A DNA stretch of 64,000 nt from positions 62,001-126,000 of the forward strand of contig JAHBWI010000002.1 in NCBI GenBank assembly GCA_019637075.1. The letters run 5' to 3'. A program made the position numbers and the translations under genes. Below are positions 32,432 to 44,866 of the stretch, in pieces. The notes beneath the pieces are model-generated. The model had not been told where the DNA came from, made no database searches, and worked only from the letters and a program-made list of their open reading frames with translations. Each line of letters opens with the position of its first letter. Within the stretch, counting starts at the first letter, position 1. Source of the DNA: Nitrospiraceae bacterium (GTDB lineage: Bacteria > Nitrospirota > Nitrospiria > Nitrospirales > Nitrospiraceae).

Positions 32432-33339
32432 ACACCGCCGGCGCCGACCCCAGACAAAGGGACCGGATCGCGGCCTGGACGATGGTGGCGCCCGCCCTCC
32501 TCGTGACCGGGCTGTTCGTGCTGTACCCGGTCATGGACTCGCTGTGGCTGAGTCTGCACCGCCTGTTCGTGGGTGTGCCGTCGCTGGGCCAACCGTTCGT
32601 CGGGCTGGACAATTACTTGGCGCTGCTTCGCGATCCCATGGCGCATCATGCCTTTGCCGTCACCTTGGCCTACGTGGTCCTTTCCACCCTGTTCGAGTTA
32701 CTCTGTGGCCTCGGCATCGCGCTCGTGATCCACGAGCGATTTCGTGGCCGCGGGCTGGTCCGCGCAGCCATCCTCATTCCCTGGGCCATTCCAACCGTCG
32801 TTGCCTCGCAACTCTGGCGTTACATCTTCAACGATCAATACGGCTTCGCCAACTTGTTGTTGTTCGGAGACCGATTGAACGAATACGTGCCCTGGTTGGC
32901 CTTCCCGGGCATGGCCTTCGCGGCGATCGTGCTGGCGGACGTCTGGAAAACCTCGTCCTTTGCGGCGCTGCTGATCCTGGCCGGACTCCAAGTCATTCCC
33001 GACGACGTCTACGAGGCGGCGAGAGTCGATGGCGCGAATCTGTGGCAACGGTTCCGCCACATTACATTGCCGCTCCTGAAACCGGCGCTGCTGCTGGCGC
33101 TCTTGTTCCGCACCATGGATGCGTTCCGCGTGTTCGACCTCGTCTTCGTCATGACGCAGGGCGGTCCAGGCGACGCCACCCAGGTACTGCAATTTTACGG
33201 GTATCAAACCCTCTTCACCGAAGGTCGACTCGGCGAGGGCTCGGCCATTTCCGTGGTCGTGTTTCTGACGATTCTGTGCCTTTCGTTGATCTATCTACGT
33301 GCGATCGGCTCGTCACTCGTGGAGCGACGACAGCCATGA
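32428..33339 (+). CDS. ABC sugar transporter permease, MalF/UgpA type
   Basis: The 303-residue permease has six hydrophobic helices and the EAA-type cytoplasmic loop YEAARVDGANLWQRFRHITL, which docks on the ATPase. The N-terminus (RDRIAAWTMVAPALLVTGLF) is typical of the MalF/UgpA/LacF class without the long periplasmic insertion of MalF. The start overlaps the binding-protein stop, and the stop overlaps the next permease start, both as ATGA, so the three genes are translationally coupled. Confidence 0.92.
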   Translation: MNTAGADPRQRDRIAAWTMVAPALLVTGLFVLYPVMDSLWLSLHRLFVGVPSLGQPFVGLDNYLALLRDPMAHHAFAVTLAYVVLSTLFELLCGLGIALVIHERFRGRGLVRAAILIPWAIPTVVASQLWRYIFNDQYGFANLLLFGDRLNEYVPWLAFPGMAFAAIVLADVWKTSSFAALLILAGLQVIPDDVYEAARVDGANLWQRFRHITLPLLKPALLLALLFRTMDAFRVFDLVFVMTQGGPGDATQVLQFYGYQTLFTEGRLGEGSAISVVVFLTILCLSLIYLRAIGSSLVERRQP

Positions 33340-41753: not shown

Positions 41754-41990
41754 TCAGAGTGTCTTGTGGGTCCCATCACAGAAGGGAGGATTCTTGGTGT
41801 GCTTGCACTGACACAAAGCCACCGTCTTCTTCTCGGTCATGGTGAACTCCATGGGGGTGAAGCTGGTCCCCTTGTGGGCCCCATCGCAGAACGGTTGATT
41901 CTTCGAACGTCCGCACCGGCACCAATAGTAGGTGCCCGGCTCCAACTCCATCACGACCGGCTGCTTGGCTGCAACGACTGGCTTTTCCAT
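41754..41990 (-). CDS. Double CDGSH iron-sulfur protein
   Basis: AGGAGG lies 7 nt before ATG 41990, setting a 78-residue protein even though the frame is open to 42149. Two CDGSH motifs are present: CRCGRSKNQPFCDGAHKG and CQCKHTKNPPFCDGTHKT, each with the Cys3-His1 ligand set for a redox-active, acid-labile [2Fe-2S] cluster. Two motifs in one chain form the bacterial tandem type. No signal peptide or membrane helix is visible. It follows the STAS gene in the sigma-54-linked run, suggesting redox, iron-sulfur or NO-related function. Confidence 0.9.
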   Translation of the reverse strand: MEKPVVAAKQPVVMELEPGTYYWCRCGRSKNQPFCDGAHKGTSFTPMEFTMTEKKTVALCQCKHTKNPPFCDGTHKTL

Positions 41991-42970: not shown

Positions 42971-43102
42971 TCACATGCGTGTCCCTGCGACTCGATGATG
43001 AACCAGTCCAGTCACCCATTCCTTTGCCAGTAGACCGACCATGATCAGAGGCAGGGCCAAAAGCATGCCGTACCACCAACCCCAGATCGTTCTATGATTC
43101 AT
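42971..43102 (-). CDS. 43-residue single-pass membrane protein
   Basis: This gene was read directly from the minus strand. ATG 43102 is preceded by GGGAGGTGAGGCC, an excellent ribosome site. The product begins [20 protein letters not shown], continues [20 protein letters not shown] and ends TRM. It has one transmembrane helix (residues ~7-25) with a Trp/Tyr-rich edge and a His/Arg-rich C-terminus. It lies between the sigma-54 promoter and the doxX-like gene (23 bp downstream) and is probably the first gene of that transcript. No family recognised. Confidence 0.7.
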
Positions 43103-43145
43103 GGCCTCACCTCCCGGTCCTGATGTCACGCTTGCCCATGATTAC

Positions 43146-43161
43146 AGCAAGGGCTGTTCCA
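43146..43161 (-). promoter_or_regulatory. Sigma-54 (-24/-12) promoter
   Basis: The minus strand reads TGGAACAGCCCTTGCT, matching TGGCACG-N4-TTGCW at the invariant GG and GC with correct spacing. It points at the 43-residue gene, 44 bp downstream, and lies between that gene and a sigma-54 activator gene. Confidence 0.75.
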
Positions 43162-43279
43162 CCTCACATCAGGTCGGGGATGCCTTGGCTAACTTATTGT
43201 TTTGGTTCTGAATTGCCGGAATAACTGAAGCGAATCTTGAGAGAGGACGAAGCGTGTGACGACGTGGAGCAGACGAGGG

Positions 43280-43295
43280 TTCGTCAGGTGACGAA
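43280..43295. promoter_or_regulatory. Candidate enhancer (upstream activator site)
   Basis: TTCGTCAGGTGACGAA is a perfect 7-bp inverted repeat with a GG centre, about 120 bp upstream of the sigma-54 promoter, a normal distance for an activator dimer site. A second palindrome, CACGATCGTG, lies at 43305-43314 over the activator's stop codon. Confidence 0.5.
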
Positions 43296-43303
43296 GTGCA
43301 TCG

Positions 43304-44866
43304 TCACGATCGTGGACGGGACAGACCGAGTTTCTTGATCTTCGACGTGAGAGTCGTCCGCTTGAGGCCTAGTCGCGCCGCGGCGCCGGTGGGTCCCCCG
43401 ATCACCCACTGCGACTCTCGCAGCACTCGAAGGATCTGCTCGCGCTCGGCCTCGTGCAGGGTTGAGTTCGAAGGTGGCGGGGCGGCTTCGTCCAGTTTGA
43501 GTTCCCCGATGGGAACCTGTAGTTCCTGCCCCTGGCTGAGGATCACCGCTCGTTCGATCAGGTTCTCCAACTCACGGATATTGCCGGGCCACCGGTAGCG
43601 TGAGAGCGCCTCCAACACCTTGGCGGGAATCGTTTCGATCCGTTTCTTCATGCGGCCAGCATAGTGCTGGGCAAAGTAACGGACCAACACGGGGACATCT
43701 TCTCGCCGCTCACGCAGCGGCGGCAGGGTCACGGGAAACACGTTCAGACGGTAAAACAGGTCGCTGCGGAATCCCTTCTGGTCGACTAGCGCCGCCAGGT
43801 CCCGGTTGGTGGCTGCAACCAACCGCACGTTCACTCTGATGGTCCTGGTGCTCCCGAGGCGTTCGAATTCCTGCTCCTGTAGAACACGCAGCAGTTTCGG
43901 CTGCAATTCGAGCGGGATCTCCCCCACTTCATCCAAGAAAATGGTTCCACCGTCGGCCAATTCGAAGCGGCCGACCTTTTGCGCGATCGCTCCCGTGAAG
44001 GCGCCCCGTTCGTGGCCGAAGAGTTCGCTTTCCAACAAACCAGTCGGGATAGCCGCACAGTTAAGCTTTACGAACGTCCGCTCGCGCCGACCACTCAGAC
44101 GATGGATCGCCCGGGCGATGAGTTCCTTGCCCGTCCCGGTTTCCCCTTGGATCAACACGCTGGAGTCAGTCGGAGCGACCACCTCCACCTGCGCCAGTAC
44201 CCGCTTCAGCCCTGGGCTCTCACCGATGATATCCTCAAAGGCGCCTTCGCTGCGGATCTCTTCCTCCAGGTAGAGTTTCTCCTTGGCCAGTCGATCCTTG
44301 AGTTCGACGATCTGCTGAAAGGCCAAGGCATTCTCCACGGCCACGGCAACCTGCCGACCGACCTGCTGGAGAAATTCCAGATCCGCCTCCGAATAGGCCG
44401 CCTTCTTCAGACTGAGGAAACCCATCGCCCCCAACCGGCCGGCTGCCGTGGTCAACGGCACAAAACAAAAGGACTGGGTCCCATCTTCCGCCATTTGGGT
44501 AGTGACCAGGGGCCAGCGGCGTTCGCCGGCCAAATCCGAGACCAGCAAGGATCGCTGTGTCTTCCAGACCACCCCGGCAGGACAGTCGTCGACCGGTGAT
44601 TCATGCCCGCCGACGAGGTCTGCCGGGACATTGGCTTGAATACTCTGCAACCTCATGCACTGTTTCACGGGATCGTAGAGAGAAAGGTCCAGAAAGTTGA
44701 CCTGGACCACGAGGGGCAAACGCTGGGCAAGTTCACGCAGGAGTGGGTCGAGATCCCGATGGGCTGAGATCGCCTCGGCAACGCCCAGCAGCGCGTGATA
44801 TTGGGCGGCAAGCCGTTCCCAACTCACTGCCTGCCGACCGTCCATCATAAGGGGTTCAGATGCCAT
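43304..44866 (-). CDS. Sigma-54-dependent activator with GAF domain (FhlA/NorR type)
   Basis: The 520-residue regulator has an N-terminal GAF sensor domain (~25-185, LLRELAQRLPLVVQVNFLDL to VAVAVENALAFQQ), a linker helix, and an AAA+ domain (~210-450) with Walker A GETGTGKE (241-248), GAFTGA (288-293) and Walker B GGTIFLDEVGEIP. A Fis-type helix-turn-helix at the C-terminus (~480-515, GPTGAAARLGLKRTTLTSKI) binds DNA. It lacks a receiver domain, so activity is set by ligand binding to GAF. A sigma-54 promoter lies directly downstream, strongly suggesting local control of the doxX/CDGSH run. The GAF ligand is unknown. Confidence 0.95.
   Translation of the reverse strand: MASEPLMMDGRQAVSWERLAAQYHALLGVAEAISAHRDLDPLLRELAQRLPLVVQVNFLDLSLYDPVKQCMRLQSIQANVPADLVGGHESPVDDCPAGVVWKTQRSLLVSDLAGERRWPLVTTQMAEDGTQSFCFVPLTTAAGRLGAMGFLSLKKAAYSEADLEFLQQVGRQVAVAVENALAFQQIVELKDRLAKEKLYLEEEIRSEGAFEDIIGESPGLKRVLAQVEVVAPTDSSVLIQGETGTGKELIARAIHRLSGRRERTFVKLNCAAIPTGLLESELFGHERGAFTGAIAQKVGRFELADGGTIFLDEVGEIPLELQPKLLRVLQEQEFERLGSTRTIRVNVRLVAATNRDLAALVDQKGFRSDLFYRLNVFPVTLPPLRERREDVPVLVRYFAQHYAGRMKKRIETIPAKVLEALSRYRWPGNIRELENLIERAVILSQGQELQVPIGELKLDEAAPPPSNSTLHEAEREQILRVLRESQWVIGGPTGAAARLGLKRTTLTSKIKKLGLSRPRS

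Follow-up and report, generated by a model that had tools for sequence, protein, structure and literature searches.

A candidate sigma-54 promoter with putative upstream palindromic enhancer sites between a GAF-type activator gene and a DoxX operon in a Nitrospiraceae genome

The window, that is, the whole stretch of DNA analyzed, comprises 64,000 nucleotides of a Nitrospiraceae bacterium (assembly GCA_019637075.1, contig JAHBWI010000002.1, positions 62,001 to 126,000), and positions without a prefix refer to it. On the minus strand, a gene for a sigma-54 activator (bEBP) is followed by a 201-nt spacer and then by a small operon encoding a DoxX-family membrane protein. The features of the locus are listed in Table 1.

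Table 1. Genes and regulatory features at the activator–DoxX locus (window coordinates)
Feature	Position	Strand	Characteristics or basis
Sigma-54 activator (bEBP), 520 aa	43304..44866	minus	GAF - AAA+ - AAA lid - Fis-type HTH
Putative enhancer (UAS) site 1, TGACGATGCACTTCGTCA	43289..43306	minus	Palindrome TGACGA-TGCACT-TCGTCA; sequence pattern
Putative enhancer site 2, TGACGAACCCTCGTC	43272..43286	minus	Starts 20 bp after site 1; same register in relatives
Third half-site of the array, TCGTCAC	43256..43262	minus	Read in sequence; recurs in relatives
Sigma-54 (-24/-12) promoter, TGGAACAGCCCTTGCT	43161->43146	minus	Read in sequence; kept in relatives
Predicted +1	43135	minus	12 nt downstream of the C at -12; from known sigma-54 promoter geometry
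Ribosome-binding site of the small ORF, GGGAGGTGAGG	43105..43115	minus	Read in sequence
Small ORF, 43 aa, first operon gene	42971..43102	minus	Homologues downstream of the same promoter
DoxX-family membrane protein, 167 aa	42444..42947	minus	Pfam DoxX, E=5.8e-22; conserved target
STAS-like protein, 124 aa	42052..42426	minus	Sub-threshold Pfam similarity; homologues in equivalent operons of relatives
CDGSH iron-sulfur protein, 78 aa	41754..41990	minus	Pfam zf-CDGSH, E=2.5e-24
SnoaL-like protein, 174 aa	41126..41650	minus	Pfam SnoaL, E=2.1e-10

The first gene of the operon is preceded by GGGAGGTGA just before its ATG at 43102, in agreement with the strong ribosome site that the original prediction had ascribed to the downstream gene. 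This 43-aa ORF is unannotated, and in several genera the same promoter is followed by homologues of the form MKDxxLWxxWYGMLVTLPLxxxGLLxK. Its codon-position mismatch rates (0.45/0.34/0.54) fit coding sequence, and the product is a probable one-helix membrane protein. The STAS score of the third gene was 15.9 bits vs. a curated Pfam cut-off of 29.2, and its homologues scored from 12 to 17.8, all below the cut-off. The CDGSH gene starts with ATG at 41990 and has AGGAGG upstream. As judged from strand and spacing, the SnoaL-like gene is possibly the last gene of the operon. Neither the CDGSH nor the SnoaL-like gene was observed in the operons inspected in relatives; the order in many relatives was DoxX, STAS-like, MFP, and RND pump, with an OEP-type gene next in some loci. 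In the genome studied, the efflux genes are located apart from the DoxX operon.

Assignment of the DoxX protein to HvfX, a copper-RiPP maturation protein, was rejected (54.6 bits vs. a curated cut-off of 80). HvfX of copper-RiPP (bufferin) operons shares the DoxX domain, but the similarity is weak, and those systems differ in that no RiPP-precursor-like or modifying-enzyme-like gene was called in the DoxX operon.

The gene directly upstream proved to be a sigma-54 activator, as had been claimed, with intact Walker A (GETGTGKE, aa 241), GAFTGA (aa 288), and Walker B (IFLDE, aa 309) motifs. The AAA+ domain matched Pfam PF00158 with E=4.3e-72 and the C-terminal Fis-type HTH matched PF02954 with E=1.7e-6. 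Its solved relatives are NifA, ZraR, NtrC, and FleQ, the best being NifA (9qq6, E=4.3e-88). The best-scoring NCBIfam equivalogs were FhlA, NifA, and NorR with 529, 415, and 367 bits; since all these scores are below the curated cut-offs (830, 528.85, and 476, respectively), identity with FhlA, NifA, or NorR was ruled out. The distance from the end of the gene down to the -24 element of the promoter is 142 bp. The genome contains a single copy of rpoN (E=3.8e-57, RpoN box ARRTVAKYR) and is rich in other sigma-54 activators, with 54 first-look candidates, 24 of which were scored.

The predicted minus-strand sigma-54 match was confirmed as TGGAACAGCCCTTGCT, with the invariant GG at 43160/43159 (-25/-24) and the invariant GC at 43148/43147 (-13/-12) in exact sigma-54 spacing; it matches 10 of the 12 scored positions of TGGCACGN4TTGCW. 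From the positions of GG and GC, transcription is expected to start at 43135, which agrees with the start position proposed earlier. Sigma-54 promoters are sought within 0–200 nt upstream of a start codon with the same orientation (PMC3162934), and between the last base of TGGAACAGCCCTTGCT and the ATG there are 43 nt, in the same direction; the close placement claimed originally stands, but the distance is 43 nt and not 44 bp. Among 5000 dinucleotide shuffles of the spacer, 14 had a match of 10/12 or better on the relevant strand, so that the match was rightly held to be unlikely by chance in a spacer of about 200 bp, and TGGAAYN5TTGCY occurred in 1 of 5000. Genome-wide, the looser pattern TGGN8TTGCW gave 284 matches vs. 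225 for the reversed pattern; these counts are near chance, mostly noise, and were left out of the evidence. Such motif noise has likewise been reported for many genomes, where the position upstream of a start codon separates the real sites (PMC3162934). Because of this noise, the motif alone is moderately strong, and the case for TGGAACAGCCCTTGCT as a predicted promoter is made by its position and conservation.

A 15-nt inverted repeat with 87% complementary arms (43112-43126 / 43166-43180) flanks the promoter, and the RNA fold of this region was better than that of shuffled sequences (z = -2.4). Both properties would suit a functional element, e.g., an RNA attenuator or a repressor site, next to which the promoter match would be incidental. 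However, the upstream arm precedes the predicted start and would therefore be absent from the sigma-54 transcript, and by eye such long arms are absent in the relatives compared, which retain the -24/-12 elements and the enhancer. We regard this explanation as very unlikely.

At the upstream end of the spacer lies the putative enhancer array. The first TGA of site 1 is the stop codon of the activator gene, and CC separates site 1 from site 2. A palindrome of the TGACGA-N6-TCGTCA type appeared in only 2 of 5000 shuffles of the region, and the 4.06-Mb genome holds six TGACGA palindromes vs. one for the control. Five of these six are outside the activator–DoxX spacer, and among the five only one, designated the C4 copy below, is accompanied by a well-placed promoter. 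Between enhancer and promoter, at 43180-43259, the GC content is 40-45%, which makes this the AT-richest part of the spacer and, as expected, fits a bendable segment. The activator very probably binds the palindromes.

In a DNA search, the whole spacer was compared with 61 relatives, and only short pieces matched, which were later seen to include the enhancer. Activator orthologues followed by a TGACGA palindrome and a promoter were found in several relatives, the promoters being TGGAATGTTCTTTGCT (G034), TGGAACGTCCCTTGCC (G032), TGGAACAGCCTTTGCC (G020), and TGGAACGCCCTTTGCC (G092); in the relative G029:C1, the DoxX promoter is TGGAATGACCTTTGCC, expected at about 33160-33175. A composite pattern (palindrome, 110-140 nt, GGAAYN5TTGCY; 31 distances allowed) was then applied to 175 genomes of the family. 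It gave 47 matches in 38 of the 175 genomes, from six genera; in these counts related genomes are not independent, and the pattern is partly derived from the sites that it recovers. Independent of that derivation are the control, in which the pattern read backwards gave no match on either strand of the 175 genomes, and the narrow spacing. The distance from the enhancer start to the -24 element was 142-146 bp in 35 of the 38 distinct readable sites and in 27 of the 30 sites less than 80% identical. One outlier of 125 bp is the second palindrome of an already counted site, and another of 126 bp has the same second-site register.

Most composite sites have the small ORF (MKDxxLWxxWYGMLVTLPL...) 41-55 nt downstream or are followed directly by DoxX. 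Viewed from DoxX, enhancer and promoter in full geometry were present ahead of 23 of its 30 closest homologues in the family, and the second-site register (126 bp) ahead of another 2. The motif is thereby conserved before orthologous genes, as looked for in sigma-54 promoters. At two loci (L130 and L131), where about 1.3 and 6 kb separate the DoxX operon from the activator gene, the operon has kept an enhancer and a promoter of its own; the architecture therefore goes with the operon rather than following from gene adjacency. Some close activator orthologues are without an adjacent enhancer and promoter of this type, and some DoxX genes are without either element upstream. Promoter, enhancer, nearly fixed spacing, conservation, and intact activator and rpoN genes can all be read in the sequences themselves.

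These comparisons bear on the possibility that TGGAACAGCCCTTGCT is a chance match and that transcription of the DoxX operon relies on a sigma-70 promoter or on read-through out of the activator gene. The bare motif is indeed common in the genome, and the activator and the operon genes stand in tandem on one strand. Nevertheless, motif, enhancer, and spacing are all conserved with a zero control, and a search of the activator–DoxX operon spacer for a sigma-70-like site found none. The probability of a chance match is only a few percent in our estimation.

The role of the neighboring activator as the driver, as first proposed, is supported by the palindromic enhancer at a nearly fixed distance of about 144 bp, which recurs with the promoter in relatives. 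With many related activators in the genome, another one could bind the enhancer of a real promoter and be its main driver. One paralogue (C2:741502-743013, 61% identity) has a TGACGA palindrome 860 bp downstream, and in several genomes of the g18 genus the DoxX promoter and the nearest activator relative are about 6 kb apart. On the other hand, the enhancer overlaps or directly trails the stop codon of the activator orthologue in many genomes, and a second paralogue in the genome pairs with another half-site, TGCCGA. A paralogue as the main driver is thus improbable, though less so than a chance match. We conclude with a probability of about 0.9 that TGGAACAGCCCTTGCT is a genuine sigma-54 promoter of the small operon and that the neighboring GAF activator would drive it through the upstream palindromes.

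When signaled, bEBPs oligomerize and, powered by ATP hydrolysis, remodel the closed complex of sigma-54 through DNA looping. At this locus, RNA polymerase with the single RpoN would wait in a closed state at 43161-43146. About 144 bp upstream, the two palindromes (43306-43272) would be occupied by the neighboring GAF activator, which, once its GAF domain is signaled, would assemble on the enhancer as an AAA+ oligomer. Looping would then bring the GAFTGA loop into contact with sigma-54 and open the promoter for a start near 43135. The transcribed operon would comprise the small membrane ORF, DoxX, STAS-like, and CDGSH genes, and perhaps the SnoaL-like gene. Binding, looping, the start site, an inducer, and the physiological role are what we infer here. 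From the family names DoxX, CDGSH, and RND only, a response of the regulon to envelope, redox, or toxic-compound stress is probable.

NtrC/glnA, NifA/nif, NorR/norVW, and PspF/psp are bEBP-controlled sigma-54 promoters with upstream enhancers. The present locus shares with them the combination of a sensor (GAF or other), an AAA+ domain with GAFTGA, and a Fis HTH, as well as a palindromic enhancer 80-200 bp upstream and a -24/-12 GG/GC promoter; the activator gene is often beside its target in those systems, and likewise here. Unlike them, it has TGACGA or, in related copies, TGCCGA half-sites, DoxX and RND efflux operons as targets, a very constant spacing of about 144 bp, and the stop codon of the activator inside the enhancer. 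The promoter is of a well-known kind; what sets it apart is mainly how strong the comparative evidence is and that its targets in relatives of Nitrospira are DoxX and efflux genes.

The second copy of enhancer and promoter in the genome is at C4:14693-14536 (L112, G000:C4:4000-18500), with a 142-bp spacing and the promoter AGGAACGCTCCTTGCC. Downstream are MFP, RND, and OEP genes and, after these, one for a nitroreductase. Because the DoxX operon and the C4 efflux operon are each behind their own TGACGA enhancer and promoter, they are predicted to be co-regulated, and the same activator probably drives the C4 operon too. RND efflux operons are usually regulated by TetR, MarR, or two-component systems. 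The MFP-RND-OEP set of tripartite efflux operons with a dedicated regulator is likewise present here, in the operon of relatives and behind the C4 copy, but the control would be by a sigma-54 activator instead of these more usual regulators.

A second enhancer class was found with some activator orthologues, in which TGCCGA-N4-TCGGCA occurs twice, 19 bp apart, before GGAAYN5TTGC. The TGCCGA composite was present in 77 of the 175 family genomes, the control giving 2 matches; the two classes differ at half-site position 3 (A or C). The genome studied has its own TGCCGA switch at C2:519346-519208 (L305), with the promoter TGGAACGCCGCTTGCT, before an MFP-RND-STAS operon. Upstream of this switch are a paralogous activator gene (C2:521171-522658, 56% identity) and, between the two, an FAD-dependent oxidoreductase-like gene. 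The recognition helix KRTTLTSK was found with TGACGA 6:0, and KRTTLQSK with TGACGA in 5 and with TGCCGA in 16 cases (Fisher p = 0.0016); this association is suggestive, but common descent confounds it and five cases depart from it, and for these reasons the covariation was set aside as evidence and is not claimed. We put forward only tentatively, as a proposal a little below even odds, that DoxX and RND-efflux operons of Nitrospiraceae may be governed by parallel stress switches of GAF activators and sigma-54, with nearly fixed enhancer-promoter geometry, insulated from each other by one half-site base (TGACGA vs. TGCCGA), and including the unannotated one-helix small protein.

Little seems to have been written on sigma-54 regulation in Nitrospira, the main nitrite oxidizers; a full-text search among open-licence papers returned no description of a promoter of this type in Nitrospira and none of DoxX or efflux genes under sigma-54 control there. 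The switch offers a concrete, testable regulon for which activator, enhancer, promoter, and targets are all predicted and which recurs in many genomes. How related activators avoid cross-talk could be studied by means of the near-constant spacing of about 144 bp and the single base that distinguishes the two enhancer classes.

In some genomes of the g18 genus (L146, L150, and L153), a second enhancer and promoter were observed beside the activator gene, before a gene for a protein of about 341 aa (MTRAAAMTTG... or MTRGDAG...).
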